Virus record (IMG/VR): IMGVR_UViG_3300010885_008274
Span: 1-24,133 of that record
DNA: 24,133 bases
DNA from: a virus
Direction: 5' to 3' (one strand)
The position numbers were made by a program, and so were the translations under genes. Positions 469 through 16,644 of this stretch are shown in pieces. The first letter of the stretch is position 1, and every line of letters begins with the position of its first letter. The notes beneath the pieces are model-generated. The model saw only the letters and a program-made list of their open reading frames with translations. It was not told the DNA's origin and searched no databases.

Positions 469-493
469 ATTATTATACTATCTAATTACAATC

Positions 494-931: not shown

Positions 932-1174
932 CTATTGTTTGTATTTAACATCTAGAATAGGATCTAAAGCAACCCTTGCTCCTAGACTTTCCAGTATAGC
1001 CTTTACCTTTGATAGGTATTGAATGCACTGAAATCTTTCAGAGTCATTATAATGTCTCCATTGACTCTCATAAAATTGTACCGTAAGAAAGGTATCATAG
1101 TCAAGTATATCTATCTTAAATTCTTTTGGTGCTTTTATAGTTCTAATTGATCTTTTCATTTCATTTGTATACAT
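932..1174 (-). CDS. Hypothetical protein, 80 aa
   Basis: I do not recognise this 80-residue protein. It is soluble, mixed alpha/beta by appearance, with a basic N-terminus and no Cys cluster or membrane segment; the second half (DSERFQCIQYLSKVKAILES) looks helical. The ATG at 1174 is preferred over the TTG one codon upstream: it shares its first base with the WhiB stop (TGATG) and has GGAG eight bases upstream. The stop lies 21 bases before ssb, so it is probably co-transcribed with whiB and ssb. Confidence 0.7.
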   Translation of the reverse strand: MYTNEMKRSIRTIKAPKEFKIDILDYDTFLTVQFYESQWRHYNDSERFQCIQYLSKVKAILESLGARVALDPILDVKYKQ

Positions 1175-1455
1175 CAATCATTCTCCATTATTGCACCAGA
1201 CCAAACTGCAAACCAATCTTCTTTTGTTTTATGTGAATTAAACTCTCTTGATATTTTTCCATTTTCAAAATATATTCCACCCCATACACCCCACTCTTGA
1301 TTGCTTACTGCATAAGCAAGACATTGTCTTTGTGCTGGACATCTTATACATAATGAGTCAACACTTGATGCAACACTATCAATTTCTTCATACTTATCAA
1401 AAAATAAATTTGTATCCATATTTAAACATAAAGCATTTTCATCAAACTTGTACAT
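1174..1455 (-). CDS. whiB-like: WhiB-like Fe-S transcriptional regulator
   Basis: Starting from the ATG at 1455 the protein has 93 residues, normal for a WhiB-like (Wbl) factor. The four [4Fe-4S] ligands are present as C10, C36, C39 and C45 (C-x25-C-x2-C-x5-C), preceded by the typical D-x-x-LFF stretch at 13-19 and followed by the GVWGG turn at 56-60, which contacts the sigma-A region 4. Wbl proteins bind the primary sigma factor and alter promoter choice; mycobacteriophage TM4 WhiBTM4 is a known phage example that represses a host whiB gene. Wbl proteins are essentially confined to Actinobacteria and their phages, so this gene is the best host clue in the window. An ATG 12 codons upstream would overlap the previous gene by 50 bases and add a stretch unlike Wbl N-termini, so it is rejected. 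Confidence 0.9.
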   Translation of the reverse strand: MYKFDENALCLNMDTNLFFDKYEEIDSVASSVDSLCIRCPAQRQCLAYAVSNQEWGVWGGIYFENGKISREFNSHKTKEDWFAVWSGAIMEND

Positions 1456-1660
1456 GTGCAATATACCTATCTGGAATATCCCACACACCATTTATACAGT
1501 CAAAACTTTTTTGTATTTTCCAACCATTTTCTGTATAGACACCATTTATAGATGAGTAACCATCCCCATTTTCTTGTGCAATTATTGACCATCCATCCCA
1601 TTTTAAATTAGGATTATTATCAACTATATTATTTGCATGTTCTAATGTTCTAATCTTCAT
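1442..1660 (-). CDS. Hypothetical protein, 72 aa
   Basis: A small soluble protein of 72 residues that I cannot assign. It is rich in Trp and Asn (KWDGWSII, ENGWKI, GVWDIPDRYI) and reads as a compact beta-rich domain: strand-turn repeats such as GDGYSSINGVYTENGW suggest a small beta-sheet. The start at 1660 is preferred over the ATG three codons upstream because AGGGG lies nine bases before it but directly abuts the upstream ATG. It overlaps the membrane-protein gene by 11 bases and the WhiB gene by 14, consistent with a translationally coupled operon. Confidence 0.7.
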   Translation of the reverse strand: MKIRTLEHANNIVDNNPNLKWDGWSIIAQENGDGYSSINGVYTENGWKIQKSFDCINGVWDIPDRYIAHVQV

Positions 1661-2709: not shown

Positions 2710-3621
2710 TTACAGGTTAAAGTCTGTTTTGTCAATATACTTTTGCAAAGTAAATGGAGAATCTATCCAAATGCCATCAGATTTTTGTGATCTAATATTC
2801 ATAATTGCATTTCTTTTTGATTTAGCCCATGCATAACCAGAATCTCCACCCCAAAGAAGCCAAGCAATTTTTCCATTAGAAGGTCTTTCTGAATTATTCC
2901 AATCCTTACCTTGTTTATCTACTTCATGACGAGAAAAGAATGAATACATTCTTAATACAGTATCTGGACTTAAATTAGTTCTATTCATTAAGTCACGAGC
3001 ACGAGCAACTCCAACTGCTGTTCCTCCACGCCCAAATTTTCTTCTTAATTCTAAACCTCTACGAGCATTATTTGCCATAGATTCTGTTGGCCTTAAATCT
3101 AAATCTGCAATAGATGCTTTAGACATATCAAGTTCGTAATCTTGATTATCCATATCATCTTGAACATCGCTACCAACTGTTACATATCCATCTGGAATTA
3201 CTGCAAACCTGCAGGCACCATTTTCTTCAATTGGCATTTCTAATATTGAACATGCAATAGATGATTTATGAAGTGCACAATTTCCACATTTTACACCAAT
3301 TTCTGCATTATCATTATTTTCACCATTTTCATATCCAACCCAAATTCCTTCTGCCTTATCTAATGGTCCTGCTTCTGTTGCTAATTTTAAAAGTGAGTCT
3401 GCAAGCATTTGCTCTGCATCTGATAACTGATCATATAATGGTTTGCCTTCCCATTGCTCTGCCTTAATAACTTTTTTGCTATCTGCTTCTGCTGCATATA
3501 AAGCACGCTGTTGTTGAATAGCAGAACTTCTTGTTTTATGGCACCCATGTGCACCTGAAGGTCCTACAACGGCATATCCGCCATTGCATCCAGGACCATT
3601 TCTTATAATATCGTAAGGCAT
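2710..3621 (-). CDS. Three-domain phage protein near terminase, function unknown
   Basis: A 303-residue protein built from three recognisable blocks. Residues 1-45 (GGYAVVGPSGAHGCHKTRSS, then a helix QQQRALYAAE) match an N-terminal module I recall from several phage morphogenesis proteins. Residues 108-140 hold four cysteines, C112, C115, C124 and C137, resembling a zinc or Fe-S binding domain. Residues 180-275 (NARRGLELRRKFGRGG, VARARDLMNR, SPDTVLRMYSFFSRHEVDK, IAWLLWGGDSG) form a domain common in phage proteins encoded near terminase, portal or prohead genes. I infer a head-assembly or DNA-packaging role from context. The gene has no Shine-Dalgarno: the ATG stands six bases after a TGATATAAT promoter, which predicts a leaderless mRNA. 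Confidence 0.8.
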   Translation of the reverse strand: MPYDIIRNGPGCNGGYAVVGPSGAHGCHKTRSSAIQQQRALYAAEADSKKVIKAEQWEGKPLYDQLSDAEQMLADSLLKLATEAGPLDKAEGIWVGYENGENNDNAEIGVKCGNCALHKSSIACSILEMPIEENGACRFAVIPDGYVTVGSDVQDDMDNQDYELDMSKASIADLDLRPTESMANNARRGLELRRKFGRGGTAVGVARARDLMNRTNLSPDTVLRMYSFFSRHEVDKQGKDWNNSERPSNGKIAWLLWGGDSGYAWAKSKRNAIMNIRSQKSDGIWIDSPFTLQKYIDKTDFNL

Positions 3622-3636
3622 ATATAAATTATATCA
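3621..3636 (-). promoter_or_regulatory. Extended -10 promoter, predicted leaderless start
   Basis: The minus strand reads TGATATAAT (3636-3628), six bases, then the ATG of the 303-residue protein at 3621. The TGn plus perfect TATAAT is an extended -10 element, which needs no -35; only a poor TTGAAA with a 20-base spacer lies upstream. Counting from the hexamer puts +1 on or next to the A of the ATG, and the gene has no ribosome-binding site. The same element and spacing recur at 15395-15410. Confidence 0.7.
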
Positions 3637-8738: not shown

Positions 8739-9024
8739 TGCTCTCTCTTAACTGTTCGAATACTTCCCACTCTATTATAGCAAGACGCACCTTTTTATTT
8801 CCTTCTCCAAGAACTACCATTAGTACTGGATCTTTTTTTCTATCTACGCTCATTGTATCTGATACTATTTTAGCCCAAGAATCTCTGCTAACAGAATATG
8901 ATTTAGAATACTCTTTAACATCTACAACAAATTTATCTAGTGATCCATCTGCTTTTACTGGACCTCTTCCAGAATTAATATGTTGTTTTGCACCAATGCG
9001 TTTAAGTTCTCCTTTTTCACTCAT
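8731..9024 (-). CDS. Hjc-like PD-(D/E)XK Holliday junction resolvase/endonuclease
   Basis: A compact 97-residue protein resembling phage and archaeal Hjc-type resolvases: a basic N-terminus (KRIGAKQHINSGRG), D26/D30 in the KADGSLDKF loop, the D35-x-K37 pair in VVDVKEY (variant of E-x-K), a conserved-looking KSYSVSRDSWAKI helix, then the core strands DPVLMVVLG and RLAIIEWEVFEQL. The PD-(D/E)XK fold would place D30, D35 and K37 in the active site. It would cleave branched DNA, overlapping in role with the RuvC-like protein encoded 1.4 kb downstream. ATG at 9024 with AAAGGG six bases upstream; it shares one base with the TAA of the small zinc-ribbon gene. A general structure-specific or restriction-like endonuclease is the alternative. 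Confidence 0.68.
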   Translation of the reverse strand: MSEKGELKRIGAKQHINSGRGPVKADGSLDKFVVDVKEYSKSYSVSRDSWAKIVSDTMSVDRKKDPVLMVVLGEGNKKVRLAIIEWEVFEQLRESNG

Positions 9025-9194
9025 TAGTAGCCCTTTATATTAAAGTTAACTTTAGATAAATGTTTTTGCAAACAAAGCCATGTTAACTCTTGAGTTTCTT
9101 TATACATTCTTGCCTTTTCTACTATTGCCTTACATGTATGGCAAACAAATTTACCATTATATAAAGTGTATTTATTATTATAGTTTTGATTCAA
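9024..9194 (-). CDS. Small zinc-ribbon protein, 56 aa, TTG start
   Basis: A gene without an ATG start, filling what otherwise would be a 153-base gap between recA and the resolvase gene. From the TTG at 9194 (inside the last codons of recA) it runs 56 codons to a TAA whose last base is the first base of the resolvase ATG (TAATG). The product reads YNGKFVCHTCKAIVEKARMY, then ELTWLCLQKHLSKV and a basic tail. C18-x2-C21 plus C41 and H45 form a plausible zinc site. I recall similar 50-60 residue zinc-ribbon proteins in other actinophages, which supports it. The ribosome-binding site is weak (AAAAGAAC), so coupling to recA translation is likely. Function unknown. Confidence 0.7.
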   Translation of the reverse strand: MNQNYNNKYTLYNGKFVCHTCKAIVEKARMYKETQELTWLCLQKHLSKVNFNIKGY

Positions 9195-10194
9195 GTTCTT
9201 TTAATTTTTCTGGATTTTGTTTTAAGTATTCTATTACTTTTGCCCTGCCTTGTAATCTTTCTTCAAAAACTGTGTACCATGCCCCACCTTTTTCAATAAT
9301 GCCAACTAATTCTGCTGTATCTACAAGATCAGCAATTTTATCTATACCAACTTCGTCAGCATCAAAATAAAAATCATATGAACCACTAACAAATGCTGGA
9401 CCAGTTTTATTAAAATCAACATGCCAGTTTACAATTCTTCCAACCTTTGATTCAATAATCTTATCTCCTACAGTAGTCTTTCCTTTAATAGCCTGATTGT
9501 CTGATTCGCTTGACCATAGTTTTACTACTGTGCTTGAAAAGAATTTAACCGCTTGTCCACCAGTTGGCATATGTGATGCATACATTGCACCAATATTATT
9601 TCTCTGTTGTGATATTAACACAAGCAGTGTCTTATTCTCTTGATTATTAGCATAGTTTAACATTTTAACTGCATTTGTCATATCTTTTGCTTCAGCACCT
9701 ATTTGTTTTGTATTTTCTAATTGCTTTAATTCAGTTGAATCTTTTTCAAAATATATTGCAGGTAACAATGCTGATATTGAATCTACAATTAAAATATCTA
9801 CTTTTGCTTTCATCAATTGTGTTGCAACATCAACCATATCGTTAATTGTTCTTGCTTCTGAATAGATTAACTTGTCTGTATCTACGCCAAGTTTTTTAGC
9901 CCACTCAGGATCAAATGATTGTTCTGCATCAATCCATGCACAAAGTTTTCCATCTTTCTGTGCTTCACCTATCATTTGCAAACAAAATGAAGACTTACCT
10001 GCTGACTTATTTCCCCAAATAAGAATTTGCCTACCGTATCCAAATCCACCTTTAAGTGCATTATTTAAACTAGGACTTGGTGTTTTTTGTTTTACTATTT
10101 CAACATCTGTTGCATTGCTTAATCTTTTTCTTAGACTTGGTTCTAGTTGTGAAAGAAATTCCTCTGTTGATATTCCTTGTACTTTACTAACCAT
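9178..10194 (-). CDS. recA: RecA/UvsX-type recombinase
   Basis: A 338-residue strand-exchange ATPase. Walker A is GNKSAGKS at 61-68, the catalytic Glu is E91 in WIDAEQSFD, Walker B is DILIVDS at 133-139, and the ISQQRNNIGAMY region with the following Gly-rich PTGGQAVKFF segment covers the Q-switch and DNA-binding loop 2. It lacks the extended C-terminal domain of some bacterial RecA proteins but keeps the core. It would drive recombination-dependent replication and repair together with SSB, the gp32-like protein, the Cas4-like nuclease and the resolvases. The ATG at 10194 has GAGAGG six bases upstream and overlaps dnaE by 8 bases. It is clearly diverged from host-type RecA, as expected for a phage copy. 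Confidence 0.93.
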   Translation of the reverse strand: MVSKVQGISTEEFLSQLEPSLRKRLSNATDVEIVKQKTPSPSLNNALKGGFGYGRQILIWGNKSAGKSSFCLQMIGEAQKDGKLCAWIDAEQSFDPEWAKKLGVDTDKLIYSEARTINDMVDVATQLMKAKVDILIVDSISALLPAIYFEKDSTELKQLENTKQIGAEAKDMTNAVKMLNYANNQENKTLLVLISQQRNNIGAMYASHMPTGGQAVKFFSSTVVKLWSSESDNQAIKGKTTVGDKIIESKVGRIVNWHVDFNKTGPAFVSGSYDFYFDADEVGIDKIADLVDTAELVGIIEKGGAWYTVFEERLQGRAKVIEYLKQNPEKLKELESKL

Positions 10195-13100
10195 TTACTA
10201 CCTCTCTTAGTATCTCTGTACCATCCTTAGTTACTTCAAATGTCATCTTCTTTGCTTTTCCAGGTTCACATTTCATAAAGCCTTCTGAAAATTTTGTTGG
10301 GAATATAACAATAGATCTCATATCTCTATTAACATCAGCAACAATCATATTTGCCATTTTCTTTCCAGTTTTTGTAACTCTTGGTTTAAATGATAGCACA
10401 TAGTGCTCTTCTTGTCCATATGGAAGAGTTTTATAATTTAAAAATTTAATTAGTGGATTGTCTAAAGAATTTTTAGCATCTTCTACAGGAACTGCTTCCA
10501 TTATTCTATTGCTTGCTACTGCTAATATATAAGTTTTTCCAGGTTCAATCTTAGTTTCTTCATCATCAAATATTCCAACAAGTCCAGTTGCATCCATCAA
10601 TTCTACTCTAGACCAACCTTTGCCTCTTTTAATATTCTTAACTACGCCCATAAGAATGAACACCCCAGTTTCTTCAAAGTCTTCTACATCATTGATATAT
10701 GCGTAGTAGTGTTGTGGAACTGTAGTTTTAAATTCTGGAAGATTAAGGTATTCATATAAATTTTCTCTGATTTGAGATTCTTCTCTTGGGTTATCTGGAA
10801 AAGTTAAAGCACCTACTGCATCTAGTGCTGATAATGCCCTAGAGTTAACGCCACTACCCTTTTTAAATACAAAGTCATAAAACTCTTGATATGTTTTAAA
10901 AGGTCTTTTATTTATAATCTTAGATGATATACCATCTGATATCCATTTGATAGCAGATAGTCCTATTCTTATTCCCTTGCCCTCAATTTTAAAGTCACTA
11001 TCTGATTCATTAATATGAGGCAACTTTAAAGAAATTCCCATACGCTTAGTTTCAATTAAATACTCAGTTCTAGCATCTTTATCTTGTTCATTTTTTAATA
11101 ATGAATACATAAACTCTATTGGATAGTAATACTTTAACCAAGCAGTCCAATATGAAAGCATTGAGTATGCAACAGCGTGTGATTTATTGAATGAGTAGCC
11201 AGCGTGAGCCTCAAAATCATGCCATAAGCCCTCTGCTTTAAATGGGGTAATATGTTTTGATGCACCAATAACAAATCTATCTTTAAACTCGTCAAATTCT
11301 TTTGCATCTTTTTTCTTGCCAATAATTTTACGAACTTTATCTGCTTCAGCCATTGACATACCACCAAGATGTACACAAGCCTGCATTACTTGTTCTTGAT
11401 ATAAAATACATCCATATGTATCTTTTGTAAATTCTTGCATGATTGGATGCACAAACTCTGTTAATGCCTTTCCGTGTTTTCTAGCAATGTATGTTTTACC
11501 AATTGTATTCATTGCACCTGGTCTAACCAATGCGTTTGATGCTGCTAATTCATCTAAGTTTCTTACGCCCATTTTAACAAGTAAATTTGTGTACGGTGTT
11601 GCTTCACACTGAAATACTCCTTTTGTTCTTCCATCTGAAAGCATTTCATAAACTTTTTTATCATCTAGATCTATATCTTTCAAAACAATATTTATCTTAT
11701 GTCTTTGTTTAATAATATTAATAGTATCATCAATAACGGTTAAAGTTTTTAATCCCAAAACATCTAACTTAATTAATCCAATATCAGCCGCCTCATTCAT
11801 ATCAACAGCAACTACAGGAATTCTTTCTTTTGTTCCTGGTGCAGTTCTAGTTTCCATTGGTGCATATTTAAATATAGGTTCCTTAGCAGTAACTACACCA
11901 GCAGCATGAATTCCAGTACCACGAATACGTCCCCTAAGTTGTTCTCCATATTTAATTACATCTGGATACTTTAACCTAAACCATTGTGCTGACTTTGAAT
12001 TAGTAAAATCATCCCAGTCATCAACTGTTTTTAAAACCTTATTAACTTCAGATAGTGGTATGTTAAATGCTCTAGATACATCTCTTACAATACCTTTGCC
12101 TCTAAATTCTAAAAATGTAGCAATAGAAGCAACATTTTCGTATTCTGTTTCTAAATAAGTTTTTAGTTCATCACGTCTTGAATCTGCAATATCGGAATCA
12201 ATATCTGGAAAATCATTTCTTTCTGGATTAACAAATCTAAAAAACAAAAGTCCATATTTAATAGGATCAACGTCTGTAATTCCAAGAACGTAACACACCA
12301 ACGATCCTGCTGCTGAACCGCGACCTGGTCCAACCAAGATTCCTTGAGACTTAGCCCAATTTAACATATTTGAAACAATTAAAAAGTATGGAGAAAAATT
12401 CTTATCTTTAATAATATCTAGTTCTTCTTGCATTCTTTCTTTATATTCTGGAATATCATATAAACCTTTTTCTGTCATACCCTTTAGAACTAGGTCAACA
12501 AGACCCATGTGAGGATCATCCATTTTAGTGGGTAGCAAATCTAGTCCAGACTTAATATCATATTCTTCTATTTTATCTACTATCTCTAATGTATTAATAT
12601 AGATATCTTCTCTAGTTATACCCTGCATATTCATACATTGCTTCATCTCTTCGTATGATAACAAATGTATATCAAATGTTCTAAATGACATAGAACGATC
12701 TTCACCATATAAATAATCTAATCTCTTCATAGGATCTGCAATTTTTTGAGATTTTTCAAACTTAACATCTTTATCTAACTTAGCGTGTGTATTTAAAAGA
12801 AGCATAATTTCTTGTATTACCTTTTGGTCTGTATTAGAATGATGACAATCAGGTGTTACAATTGTCTTAATGTCCATACTGTCTGCAAGAGCCAAAAGTT
12901 CATGATTCATCTCACGACTATTATGTGGCATTATTTCCACATAAAAATCATCACCGAAGGTATTCTTAAACCAAGTCAAGTGCTTTTTGGCAACAGCATA
13001 TTCATTAAATTCAAGAGCCTTATTAATAAGACCACTAGGACAGGCAGTAGATACAACTAGTCCATCTTTATATTTTTCTAATATTTCAAAATCTATTCTA

Positions 13101-13468
13101 GGTTTTTTATAAAACCCCTCTGTCCATGCTAGTTCATTTAGTCTATTTAAATTTTCTAAACCTTGTTGATTTTTAGCAAGAATAACTATATGGTTATAAA
13201 CTAAATCTAGTGGATCTCCTTCCCTTTCTAACTTATCTCTTTTATCAAATCTATCAGCAGTAATATATCCTTCTATTCCAAGTATTGGTTTTATACCCTC
13301 TGCTTTTGCTGCACGATACATTGGACGATGTCCAGACAATGCACCATGATCTGTGATTGCAATTGCAGGCATTCCTAAACTTTTTGCACGTTTACAGTAT
13401 TCTTCTGGTGTAGCAACTCCGTCCATAAGTGAGTAGTGAGTATGAACGTGTAATGGTGCGTAATTCAA
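10187..13468 (-). CDS. dnaE: DNA polymerase III alpha subunit (C-family, with PHP domain)
   Basis: A 1093-residue replicative polymerase. The PHP domain (1-270) retains all nine metal-ligand positions: H7, H9, D16, H41, E66, H93, C143, D207 and H209, so it may proofread, as the PHP domain of mycobacterial DnaE1 does; no separate epsilon exonuclease is seen in the window. The palm holds GPGRGS at 380-385, D424 and D426 (in PDIDSD) and D569 (in IKLDVLG). Helix-hairpin-helix and OB-fold regions follow, the latter near VFILMGVVKNIKRGKGWSRV. The start is TTG at 13468, with AAGG six bases upstream and a hairpin just before that. Low initiation from TTG fits a protein needed in few copies. recA follows with an 8-base overlap. 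Confidence 0.95.
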   Translation of the reverse strand: MNYAPLHVHTHYSLMDGVATPEEYCKRAKSLGMPAIAITDHGALSGHRPMYRAAKAEGIKPILGIEGYITADRFDKRDKLEREGDPLDLVYNHIVILAKNQQGLENLNRLNELAWTEGFYKKPRIDFEILEKYKDGLVVSTACPSGLINKALEFNEYAVAKKHLTWFKNTFGDDFYVEIMPHNSREMNHELLALADSMDIKTIVTPDCHHSNTDQKVIQEIMLLLNTHAKLDKDVKFEKSQKIADPMKRLDYLYGEDRSMSFRTFDIHLLSYEEMKQCMNMQGITREDIYINTLEIVDKIEEYDIKSGLDLLPTKMDDPHMGLVDLVLKGMTEKGLYDIPEYKERMQEELDIIKDKNFSPYFLIVSNMLNWAKSQGILVGPGRGSAAGSLVCYVLGITDVDPIKYGLLFFRFVNPERNDFPDIDSDIADSRRDELKTYLETEYENVASIATFLEFRGKGIVRDVSRAFNIPLSEVNKVLKTVDDWDDFTNSKSAQWFRLKYPDVIKYGEQLRGRIRGTGIHAAGVVTAKEPIFKYAPMETRTAPGTKERIPVVAVDMNEAADIGLIKLDVLGLKTLTVIDDTINIIKQRHKINIVLKDIDLDDKKVYEMLSDGRTKGVFQCEATPYTNLLVKMGVRNLDELAASNALVRPGAMNTIGKTYIARKHGKALTEFVHPIMQEFTKDTYGCILYQEQVMQACVHLGGMSMAEADKVRKIIGKKKDAKEFDEFKDRFVIGASKHITPFKAEGLWHDFEAHAGYSFNKSHAVAYSMLSYWTAWLKYYYPIEFMYSLLKNEQDKDARTEYLIETKRMGISLKLPHINESDSDFKIEGKGIRIGLSAIKWISDGISSKIINKRPFKTYQEFYDFVFKKGSGVNSRALSALDAVGALTFPDNPREESQIRENLYEYLNLPEFKTTVPQHYYAYINDVEDFEETGVFILMGVVKNIKRGKGWSRVELMDATGLVGIFDDEETKIEPGKTYILAVASNRIMEAVPVEDAKNSLDNPLIKFLNYKTLPYGQEEHYVLSFKPRVTKTGKKMANMIVADVNRDMRSIVIFPTKFSEGFMKCEPGKAKKMTFEVTKDGTEILREVVNG

Positions 13469-13485
13469 ATTATTCCTTAATATAG

Positions 13486-13509
13486 TGGGGGAGATATTTC
13501 ACTCCCCCA
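13486..13509 (-). repeat. GC-rich hairpin between gp32-like gene and dnaE
   Basis: On the minus strand TGGGGGAG (13509-13502) and CTCCCCCA (13493-13486) form a perfect 8-bp stem with the 8-base loop TGAAATAT. It starts seven bases past the gp32-like stop and ends before the dnaE ribosome-binding site. No T-run follows (CTATATTAAGG), so it is not a standard intrinsic terminator. It may protect the 3' end of a processed gp32-like mRNA, attenuate transcription weakly, or hinder ribosome access to dnaE. Confidence 0.75.
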
Positions 13510-13515
13510 GTTGTT

Positions 13516-14166
13516 TTACCAATCAACAGATGTTGATGTTGCTTGATTGCTGAATCCAATATAAAAATTTTCTTGCTCTGCATATGGAACTTCTCTAACA
13601 ACCTTTTCTAAATTAGGATATTCGTAATTACCCCAATTAAATGGTTCTGAGTCTTGTTTTTGTGGAAGCAGTACATAGTTTGTTTCTGTTCCTTTTCCAT
13701 TGCGTTTTAACTTCCAAGTCATATTTGAAATACTTGGTGAGTCTGAAGCAAATTCTCTAATTGTATTAAATGTAGCAGCCTTGCTTACACCCATACTCCA
13801 AACTGCAACATGTGGTGCGTCAATTGCATTATCAACCAACACATTGCAATAAAAACGAAGACGTGCTCTCCATCCACTTTTTGGATCTTTTCTAAACATC
13901 TCGCAACCAAAACAACGACCTTGTGTATCTGTTGTGCAAGCAGACTTGCGTTTATAATCATCTGGATTTGAGTGTTCACTTATCACAATTGCAAGACCAC
14001 GTTTTTCATCATAAGTTGGTGAGTCTGCATCTAATTCACTGATAAATCTAATTTGAGCACTTTGCCCATCATCTAATTTTAACCACGTTACTTTTTCACC
14101 TGAAACATTTGATTTTGGTTTATCAATAATTGCTTCAATGTTTTTTAGTCCTTTAATAATTGCCAT
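13516..14166 (-). CDS. gp32-like zinc-containing ssDNA-binding protein
   Basis: A 216-residue protein that resembles phage T4 gp32 in its most diagnostic feature: a zinc site of H65, C77, C85 and C88 (H-x11-C-x7-C-x2-C), placed almost exactly where T4 gp32 has H64, C77, C87 and C90. The early strand (VTWLKLDDGQSAQIRFIS) and the basic-aromatic RFYCNVLVDN and GNYEYPNLEK regions fit an OB-fold core. The C-terminus (STSVDW) is short and only weakly acidic, unlike the long acidic tail of gp32. It should coat template ssDNA between the primase and polymerase encoded on either side. It has one of the strongest ribosome-binding sites in the window, AAGGAG five bases before ATG 14166, as expected for a stoichiometric protein. 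A hairpin follows. Confidence 0.82.
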   Translation of the reverse strand: MAIIKGLKNIEAIIDKPKSNVSGEKVTWLKLDDGQSAQIRFISELDADSPTYDEKRGLAIVISEHSNPDDYKRKSACTTDTQGRCFGCEMFRKDPKSGWRARLRFYCNVLVDNAIDAPHVAVWSMGVSKAATFNTIREFASDSPSISNMTWKLKRNGKGTETNYVLLPQKQDSEPFNWGNYEYPNLEKVVREVPYAEQENFYIGFSNQATSTSVDW

Positions 14167-14205: not shown

Positions 14206-15159
14206 CTATTGTAGCATAGAGGATAGTATGTCGTCAAATCTATCAATAAACTTTTTTAACTCTTCATTTGACAAATCGGACACATCTTTTATGTCATCTG
14301 GAAGTGGTGGTGCTATACATCCTGTTCCAAAATATGCAATCATTTTTTTTGACATATTTTGTCCAGCCTCATCATTGTCTCCTAAAACAATTACTTGATT
14401 AAAATATTGCTTTAAAAGTTTTCTTTGTTCTTTTGATATAGTAGCCCCTAATGTTGCAACAGCATGAACACCAATTTGCTCTAGTCTAATTGCATCAAAT
14501 GATGACTCTACAACAAAAACTTTATCATATCTTTTTGCCCTATGTAAATTAAATAAAGTTTTACTTTTAGGAAGTCCAGGTGTATTCTTAAATACTTTAC
14601 CCTCTACTGATCTTCCAACAAAACCTAAACATATTCCGTTTGGAGAATAAACTGGAATAGTAACCATATCTTGTTTTTCTGAATAACCAAGTTTATAAGT
14701 TATAACACTATCTTTAGTTATATTTCTAGATTTATAATAGTTAGCAGCCCTAGAAGAATTAAGAGCACCACTATTTAGTTTATCAATAACTGTTAAATCA
14801 TATTCTACAAACTCTACTTTTTTATCTAAAGTTTGTTGTAATATTTCTACTAAATTTTTATCATCAGATTTAGAATCTATAAGTCTTGCTGCTTCAAAAT
14901 ATGATCTTCCACTTGCTTGCATAATTACTTCTGTAAACTCTTTTGTTTCCTGACAGGCAAAGCAATAAAACATTCCATTAGTCTTATGAACTTCTGCCGC
15001 AGGTGTTCTTGAATTGCTGTGAAAAGGACAATAGATAATAAAGTCTACATCTACTTCTGAAACAATTCCAATACCAGATGCTAAGAGGCTTCTTCTTATT
15101 TGATTTTCTGAATAATATTGGATACTATTGGATTGTTCTTGTCTATTCCTAGTATGCAC
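14206..15159 (-). CDS. dnaG-like: DnaG-type DNA primase
   Basis: A 317-residue primase making RNA primers for DnaE. The N-terminal CHC2-type zinc domain has C44-x2-H47 (in YCPFHSN) and C66-x2-C69 (in FYCFACQ). The TOPRIM core has E218 (in FVVESSFDAIRL) and the D-x-D pair D261/D263 (in VIVLGDNDEAGQ). It lacks the C-terminal helicase-binding domain of cellular DnaG, hence the short length. The start must be GTG at 15159: the only downstream Met before the zinc domain ends is residue 63, past the first ligands. AGG lies four to six bases upstream. This gives a 64-base overlap with the preceding gene, the longest true overlap in the window. Helicase, primase and polymerase genes lie in sequence in one operon. 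Confidence 0.92.
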   Translation of the reverse strand: MHTRNRQEQSNSIQYYSENQIRRSLLASGIGIVSEVDVDFIIYCPFHSNSRTPAAEVHKTNGMFYCFACQETKEFTEVIMQASGRSYFEAARLIDSKSDDKNLVEILQQTLDKKVEFVEYDLTVIDKLNSGALNSSRAANYYKSRNITKDSVITYKLGYSEKQDMVTIPVYSPNGICLGFVGRSVEGKVFKNTPGLPKSKTLFNLHRAKRYDKVFVVESSFDAIRLEQIGVHAVATLGATISKEQRKLLKQYFNQVIVLGDNDEAGQNMSKKMIAYFGTGCIAPPLPDDIKDVSDLSNEELKKFIDRFDDILSSMLQ

Positions 15160-15395
15160 TTTGCCTGATCCCTTCCAACATAAACTCCGTATACAGATAA
15201 TTCAAATTCAAATGTCTTTCCATTATAACTTACAGTAAAGTCTGTGTCAATATCATATCTTGGAACATAGCCTTTATTTCTCATTCCATTAATAAGCATA
15301 AATGTGTATTGATCTTTAAGTCTTAGGATATGAGAGTCGTCAAATATTTCTCCTTGTAGGAAAAATCTTCTAATTCTTTTATGACTGTATGACAT
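15096..15395 (-). CDS. Hypothetical protein at head of primase-polymerase transcript, 99 aa
   Basis: A 99-residue basic protein that I do not recognise. It has a helical, Arg-rich start (SHKRIRRFFLQGEIF, then LRLKDQYTFMLINGMRNKG), a beta hairpin in the middle (YDIDTDFTVSYNGKTFEFELSVYGVYVG) and a helical C-terminus. There is no Shine-Dalgarno before ATG 15395; instead a TGATATAAT promoter ends six bases before the start codon, so the message is predicted to be leaderless. The last 64 bases overlap the primase gene in another frame. Being the first gene of a new transcript that carries primase, gp32-like protein and polymerase, it may act in replication. Confidence 0.75.
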   Translation of the reverse strand: MSYSHKRIRRFFLQGEIFDDSHILRLKDQYTFMLINGMRNKGYVPRYDIDTDFTVSYNGKTFEFELSVYGVYVGRDQAKCILGIDKNNPIVSNIIQKIK

Positions 15396-15410
15396 AGTTT
15401 AATTATATCA
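15395..15410 (-). promoter_or_regulatory. Extended -10 promoter, predicted leaderless start
   Basis: On the minus strand TGATATAAT (15410-15402) is followed by TAAACT and then the ATG at 15395. There is no -35 match at 16-18 bases upstream (the hexamer there is GGCTAG) and no ribosome-binding site for the gene. Position and spacing are identical to the element at 3621-3636, and the base after the -10 is T in both. It probably drives the primase, gp32-like, dnaE and recA transcript. Confidence 0.72.
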
Positions 15411-15417
15411 ACGTTAT

Positions 15418-16644
15418 TTAAGAACTAGCCTCATTATCTTTATACATAAATCTACCGCTATCAAAATCAATATCTATCATAAAATCACCACAAAAACCGT
15501 GTCTGTTCTTTCTAAATACGCATTCTAAGATACTACTTCCTGCTGCACGTCCTAGTGCTAATACCCAGTCAGCATCATATGCTAACTGTCTAGACCATGC
15601 TACCTGACCTAATGAAGGCACGGTATACATATCAGTAGCATCATCTGGAGTTGCTGATGCAATTGCAACTATTGGAACATTTGCTGATATTGCTAAAATC
15701 TTTAATTCTCTAGAAATATTTTTAATTTTTACTACTTCATTATCTGTATAGTTGTTTGATTGCATTAATTGAATATAATCAACAAATACTATATCTGGAG
15801 AGTATTGATCTATTTTACCCCGCAAAATTGATGGAGATACTTCTCCAAGTCCATCATTAGAAACTATATGAAATGATGGCATTCTTTGTAAATGTTGCTC
15901 TCCCCATACTTTAAAAGATTCTGTATCTATAATTCCAGAACTTAATTTTCTATGAGACCACATTCCTTGACCCATAATTGTATATGCACGATTACGAACT
16001 TCTGACTCTGTCATTTCTAATGAGATGAATAACGGCTTTCTGCCATTCTTCCATGCCTGTACAGCCATAAAAAGTGCCAACCAAGACTTACCAATAGCAG
16101 GATAAGCAAGAAGAATGCCAAACTGACCAGGAGTAATACCCGCTGGAAGATAGTTATCAAAGCCTGCAAGGCCTGTTTTAATACCGTGAATACCTTTATC
16201 ATGCATCTCCTTAACGTGTTCATAATATGCAACAGCATCTTCTATATCAACAGCATCAATATCTCTAATCTCTGCTGTAATTCTTTTTAAATCTGCTGTT
16301 TTTGAAATAATACTATTCAAGGCTTCAACTGGTTGATTAAGTTTTAATTTATTTGCTGTATCCATTAAAACATTACTTAGACTAGTTTGTAAGTTTGCAG
16401 TTCTTAATTCTTCAAGGTGATGTTTAGTTCCACCAATCTCACCTACTGGACTAAAGTCTCTAAACTTTTCTATTACCAAATTTATTGGTGGGACATTGCT
16501 ATTTTGTTCTTGATAATTTCTTATAAAATCCCAAATATCTTTATGTGTTTTAAATAAAGAGTCTGGGTTTGATTGCAATAATATATGGATCTGTTTATCT
16601 TTTAGTACGGCTGATAATACTTTACTTTCTAATTCTGCCGACAT
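15418..16644 (-). CDS. dnaB: Replicative DNA helicase, DnaB family
   Basis: A 408-residue hexameric helicase that unwinds the fork 5'-3' and recruits primase. An N-terminal helical domain (1-125) precedes the RecA-type motor, which shows Walker A AYPAIGKS at 180-187 (DnaB proteins normally read ARPSMGKT here), the catalytic Glu in FISLEM (E210), Walker B DIVFVDYIQLM at 284-294, motif H4-like SRQLAYDADWVLALGR, and the terminal arginine-finger region FRKNRHGFCGD near 377-387. It is somewhat shorter than cellular DnaB (about 450-470) because of a reduced N-terminal domain. The ATG at 16644 shares a base with the preceding TAA (TAATG), with no strong ribosome-binding site, so translation is coupled to the gene before it. 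Confidence 0.94.
   Translation of the reverse strand: MSAELESKVLSAVLKDKQIHILLQSNPDSLFKTHKDIWDFIRNYQEQNSNVPPINLVIEKFRDFSPVGEIGGTKHHLEELRTANLQTSLSNVLMDTANKLKLNQPVEALNSIISKTADLKRITAEIRDIDAVDIEDAVAYYEHVKEMHDKGIHGIKTGLAGFDNYLPAGITPGQFGILLAYPAIGKSWLALFMAVQAWKNGRKPLFISLEMTESEVRNRAYTIMGQGMWSHRKLSSGIIDTESFKVWGEQHLQRMPSFHIVSNDGLGEVSPSILRGKIDQYSPDIVFVDYIQLMQSNNYTDNEVVKIKNISRELKILAISANVPIVAIASATPDDATDMYTVPSLGQVAWSRQLAYDADWVLALGRAAGSSILECVFRKNRHGFCGDFMIDIDFDSGRFMYKDNEASS

Follow-up and report, generated by a model that had tools for sequence, protein, structure and literature searches.

Leaderless genes marked by a -10 element a few bases upstream of the start codon are established for Actinobacteria (Zheng et al. 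2011, PMC3160421). The transcription start sites (TSSs) of S. lividans are located 6.3 nt downstream of the -10 element on average, 88.7% of them at 5-7 nt, and among the primary TSSs 17% give leaderless mRNAs (PMC8079986). For leaderless translation in M. smegmatis, a 5′-terminal ATG or GTG is both necessary and sufficient (PMC4633059). Leaderless mRNAs are also known from phages, with examples in lambda and P2 (cited in PMC4633059), and gene 90 of mycobacteriophage Adephagia has been predicted to be leaderless (PMC11373665). A literature search of a limited library returned no paper on leaderless transcription in the phages considered here, which does not prove that none exists.

The site that we describe lies at position 15395 of the window, by which we mean the whole stretch of viral DNA that was analysed (24,133 nt); as the window is a 24-kb fragment, it is described only as a relative of the Stanwilliamsviridae. 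With the actinobacterial genes led by a -10 element (PMC3160421, PMC8079986, PMC4633059) the site shares the distance of that element, the lack of a Shine-Dalgarno (SD) sequence, an ATG at the predicted +1 and the coexistence with SD-led genes; a TG before the -10 element has been reported for low-GC genomes. It differs in that the sequences come from tailed phages of uncultured hosts with a GC content of about 32%, that the 5′ ends are predicted, and that the hexamer is strictly TATAAT, whereas high-GC actinobacteria use TANNNT. The cases in lambda, P2 and Adephagia likewise involve a phage transcript that starts at the start codon, but they are single genes, whereas here a multi-gene set is conserved across a phage group, with one of its sites located within the replication genes. 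The promoter at 15395 is thus well supported as a new instance of an established kind of gene start.

The minus strand reads TGATATAAT (15410-15402), followed by the spacer TAAACT and then by ATG (15395-15393); the features are collected in Table 1. The stop codon of dnaB, a TAA, occupies 15420-15418, and the entire promoter signal is contained in the 22-nt non-coding gap that separates it from ATG 15395. The open reading frame that begins at this ATG has no start codon further upstream. No -35 element is apparent at 16-18 nt, and an SD is absent in 44 of the 45 distinct ortholog contexts. An earlier note on this DNA had described an extended -10 element, six bases and an ATG with neither SD nor -35, and the minus strand reads exactly so from 15410 to 15393. 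The same note let the gene head the replication cluster. Genes for the primase, the ssDNA-binding protein, DnaE and RecA do lie downstream, but the DnaB gene (15418-16644) stands directly upstream of the promoter, which is therefore located within the replication genes, between dnaB and the rest, and not at the head of the cluster.

Table 1. Coordinates of the features discussed, in the window unless a cultured phage is named.
Feature	Position	Strand	Basis or remark
TG of extended -10 (TGA-TATAAT)	15409..15410	-	direct sequence; the A between TG and hexamer is 15408
-10 hexamer TATAAT	15402..15407	-	direct sequence and ortholog contexts
6-nt spacer TAAACT	15396..15401	-	length kept, sequence free (16 versions in 28 d=6 contexts)
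ATG start, predicted transcription start (putative +1 at 15395)	15393..15395	-	spacing, cf. S. lividans TSSs (PMC8079986)
Predicted leaderless first cistron, 99 aa, phrog_17515	15096..15395	-	ORF and family search
DnaB-like helicase, upstream of promoter	15418..16644	-	PHROG phrog_19, 6.4e-63
Primase, second cistron, overlaps first cistron	14206..15159	-	phrog_47
Single-strand DNA-binding protein, gp32-like	13516..14166	-	phrog_9721; SD-led in 49/49 contexts
DnaE-type DNA polymerase III alpha	10187..13468	-	phrog_405
RecA/UvsX-like recombinase	9178..10194	-	phrog_97; SD-led in 9/10 contexts
Second predicted leaderless promoter: TGATATAAT, TTATAT, ATG 3621	3628..3636	-	sequence and ortholog contexts
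Predicted leaderless gene, 303 aa, phrog_2859, just downstream of terminase region	2710..3621	-	family search
WhiB-like regulator, marker of actinobacterial host	1174..1491	-	Pfam PF02467, 1.6e-12
TunaTartare genes 144 and 190, annotated start 30-42 nt upstream of TATAAT-N6-ATG	L186 4202-4558, 21082-21315
EGole gene 223, annotated start 30-42 nt upstream of TATAAT-N6-ATG	L188 153-501

The product of the first cistron belongs to no Pfam family and has no significant sequence match in the PDB. At E<=0.001, its AlphaFold model (pLDDT 86.5) matched no fold in the PDB and a single viral entry, which is unnamed.

TATAAT is common in AT-rich DNA, and the motif might have arisen by chance. With up to one mismatch, TGNTATAAT is not enriched in the 24-kb window (79 matches, 77.8 expected from shuffled sequence), and the exact motif occurs three times on the coding strand, for 1.7 expected. 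In two of these three, at 15395 and 3621, exactly six bases separate the motif from a gene's ATG. The full arrangement TGNTATAAT-N6-ATG occurs twice, against a mean of 0.12 in shuffled sequence, and at least two occurrences were obtained in 1 of 500 shuffles. The comparison with shuffled sequence proposed in the earlier note thus has a divided outcome: the motif alone is at chance level, while its placement six bases before an ATG is above it. The third exact site (8774-8782) is intragenic and its conservation tracks the peptide LAIIE, so it was not counted. Since plain TATAAT-N6-ATG is not significant in the window alone (2 versus 1.4), the comparative evidence carries the case.

For this comparison, 80 IMG/VR loci encoding a related DnaE were collected and searched with the 99-aa protein by tblastn, and the upstream sequence was then read. 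The 60 orthologs represent 45 distinct upstream contexts, window included. TATAAT is located 5-7 nt before the ATG in 44-45 of these 45 contexts (d=5 in 3, d=6 in 28 and d=7 in 14, where d is the distance from hexamer to start), a count to be read with the caution that related phages are not sampled independently. No base of the hexamer varies and the start is ATG in all listed contexts, while the spacer takes 16 versions among the 28 d=6 contexts. The spacing of 5-7 nt holds among relatives down to 45% protein identity. The T at -15 and the G at -14 are only partly conserved; the G is present in 64% of the contexts with d=6. In the clade with d=7, the TAA inside TATAAT itself is the stop codon of dnaB, as the 8-nt gap in one relative (G016) shows.

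The second site, at 3621, is conserved more strictly: TATAAT stands exactly 6 nt before the ATG in 23 of 24 ortholog contexts, all 23 carry the TG, and the remaining context reads TGGTATACT-N6-ATG. Ten different spacers occur, and the motif is retained although the upstream sequence is wholly different in several relatives. Among the 28 other window genes (30 were tested), there were three scattered cases of TATAAT at 5-7 nt in all. With the exact placement in the window, the retention in all ortholog contexts read and the peak of distances described below, a chance origin has a negligible likelihood and is, for practical purposes, refuted by the comparative data.

In the longer contigs of eight relatives, ORFs were called by a simple procedure, and the spacing between TATAAT and candidate starts was recorded over 9 contigs, using unselected starts with no preference for 6-7 nt. 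The distribution has a sharp peak of 31 at d=6, most other distances having counts of 0-10, and a control with late in-frame starts gave 3 at d=6 and no peak. Independently of gene calls, TATAAT-N6-ATG occurs 48 times on the coding strand of eleven sequences, the maximum for all distances from 0 to 20 (other distances mostly 6-24, the next highest being 24), versus 9 times on the other strand. The 21 leaderless families of the aquatic phages all lack an SD of 4 or more, which 75% of the families with d=15-30 possess. The proportions with a TG before the hexamer are 57% in the leaderless families and 50% in the d=15-30 families. The mean best -35 match of the leaderless families, 2.43 of 6, compares with a background of 2.52. 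Distances of 11-14 nt are rare, which fits the avoidance of 4-14 nt leaders in Lactococcus (PMC10986495), though that is another phylum. A terminator-like stem directly precedes some leaderless sites, as would be expected for a true transcription start. For abundant uncultured actinophages, these data suggest a simple conserved start rule, namely TATAAT, six bases and ATG.

Extended -10 boxes are also located 15-55 nt upstream of SD-led genes in these phages. Promoter distance, and not promoter type, thus appears to divide the leaderless from the SD-led mode. One such box, TAGTATAAT at 472-480 (minus strand), precedes the M23 peptidase gene, which has an SD, by 55 nt; in longer contigs of relatives, TATAAT stands 51-54 nt before genes similar to it. 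We regard the 472-480 site as a putative SD-led promoter of the same extended -10 kind.

Leaderless transcription at 15395 is strongly supported by these sequence comparisons. That transcription starts at the AUG, that host RNA polymerase is the agent and that ribosomes translate the 5′ AUG are inferences. Host RNA polymerase would very probably bind the sigma-70-type extended -10 element in the gap between dnaB and phrog_17515 and begin transcription six bases downstream of the hexamer, with the A of ATG 15395 as the first base, and the ribosome would bind the 5′ AUG of this leaderless mRNA to initiate the first cistron, a mode common in actinobacteria. The primase, the ssDNA-binding protein, DnaE and RecA would be translated from the same transcript, mostly from SDs; in the ortholog contexts the SD signals of the DnaE and primase genes are weaker than those of the ssDNA-binding protein and recA genes. 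That the transcript would start at the AUG had been predicted in the earlier note, and the retention of hexamer and spacing while the spacer drifts, the d=6 peak and the lack of SDs in this class all point the same way. An actinobacterial host, as the note had also supposed, agrees with the WhiB gene in the window and with the closest cultured relatives, which infect Streptomyces and Rhodococcus; a search of bacterial genomes with DnaE matched only distant cellular polymerases.

Other points also weigh against the leaderless reading. The TG is poorly conserved at 15395, and a promoter-like sequence inside the 99-aa ORF might drive the primase instead. This is a perfect TTGACA-N17-TATAAT at 15250-15222 (minus strand), some 60 nt upstream of where the primase gene begins. 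The primase might have a promoter of its own here, or the match may be a coincidence; it is conserved along with the peptide YDIDTDFTxSYNGK, and since the two are kept together its conservation is not independent evidence.

It is also conceivable, though unlikely, that the promoter is real but yields a short leader or mixed starts, or that read-through mRNA from dnaB dominates and ribosomes reinitiate after dnaB. The genes form a dense array on one strand, no more than 22 nt separate the dnaB stop from the ATG, a distance that would allow reinitiation, and in cultured relatives the two genes are coupled by the closeness of stop and start, without a promoter. Reinitiation alone, however, would not need a conserved TATAAT, the spacing of 5-7 nt persists at 45% protein identity, and the 3621 motif survives next to wholly different upstream sequence in several relatives. 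We retain leaderless initiation at 15395 as the preferred reading.

By the 99-aa protein, the closest cultured phages are Stanwilliamsviridae phages of Streptomyces and Rhodococcus phages such as Trina. The tie to the Stanwilliamsviridae consists of a matching replication gene order and homology at a protein identity of about 33-55%. TunaTartare, EGole, Coruscant and Trina share the order dnaB, 99-aa homologue, primase, ssDNA-binding protein and DnaE, which in TunaTartare is interrupted by an HNH gene. None of the cultured relatives read has a promoter at the junction of dnaB and the 99-aa gene, where the helicase stop and the next start overlap or lie within a few bases; either the aquatic phages gained this site or the others lost it. 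Their predicted leaderless starts are at other genes, for example at a small gene before UvsX in TunaTartare. The counts of TATAAT-N6-ATG on the coding strand versus a reversed control are 6/0, 3/0, 2/0 and 4/0 in four cultured phages, and 3-4 versus 2 in Trina. Over four cultured genomes, the d=6 count is 12 for TATAAT and 70 for TANNNT, the latter over a background of about 20. The arrangement of -10 element, six bases and ATG thus appears to belong to a wider phage group.

In TunaTartare, EGole and Blueeyedbeauty, most of the ATGs in TATAAT-N6-ATG are annotated starts. Three, in TunaTartare and EGole, lie in frame 30-42 nt inside an annotated gene. The annotated starts of these genes (TunaTartare 144 and 190, EGole 223) are probably misplaced, and gene 144 as annotated overlaps a tRNA. 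The rule settles start codons in places where gene finders that rely on SDs can err, as in these three in-frame cases. The culturable Streptomyces phages, moreover, allow leaderless and SD-led translation of the same gene to be compared directly.

The earlier note had further proposed that a switch from SD-led to leaderless genes could separate early from late translation. Two leaderless genes do stand among SD-led ones in the window, and one of them heads replication genes, as might be expected if SD-led genes served one phase and leaderless genes the other. Leaderless starts, however, are predicted in replication and structural genes alike, namely at the replication gene, an SNase-like nuclease gene, a tail-fibre-like gene and a tail-chaperone-like gene (the last in G016 and G018), and the prohead (capsid) protease gene has predicted leaders of 3-4 nt (d=9-10). 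In EGole and Coruscant, the head-tail adaptor gene belongs to the leaderless class, whereas in aquatic relatives it is SD-led, with d=24, and SD-led genes carry the same extended -10 element. Only a first cistron can be leaderless, moreover, and the later cistrons of this operon are mostly SD-led. Such a timing class is accordingly very improbable, and the proposal is not supported.

We tentatively consider another role, which we think possible but doubtful. As its ORF has no SD, phrog_17515 might need its own leaderless transcript for efficient translation and be translated only poorly from dnaB read-through, in which case the promoter would make this gene and those after it independent of dnaB. 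Within the phage group, the promoter-to-ATG distance would then be an evolvable means of changing between translation modes, as the two states of the head-tail adaptor gene suggest.

Some further arrangements were observed. In five relatives (G001, G003, G004, G008 and G009), a terminator-like stem is located upstream of the tail-chaperone-like gene, and its T-rich tail leads directly into the extended -10 element (GGTGGGTTTTGTGC-TATAAT), so that a terminator and the next promoter appear to be fused. Two TATAAT boxes ten bases apart precede a single predicted leaderless ATG at G001:59415 and at G002:4785 (d=16 and d=6). Finally, the gap from the ssDNA-binding protein gene to DnaE holds a strong GGGGGAG/CTCCCCC hairpin (13486-13509), a possible terminator, attenuator or processing site.
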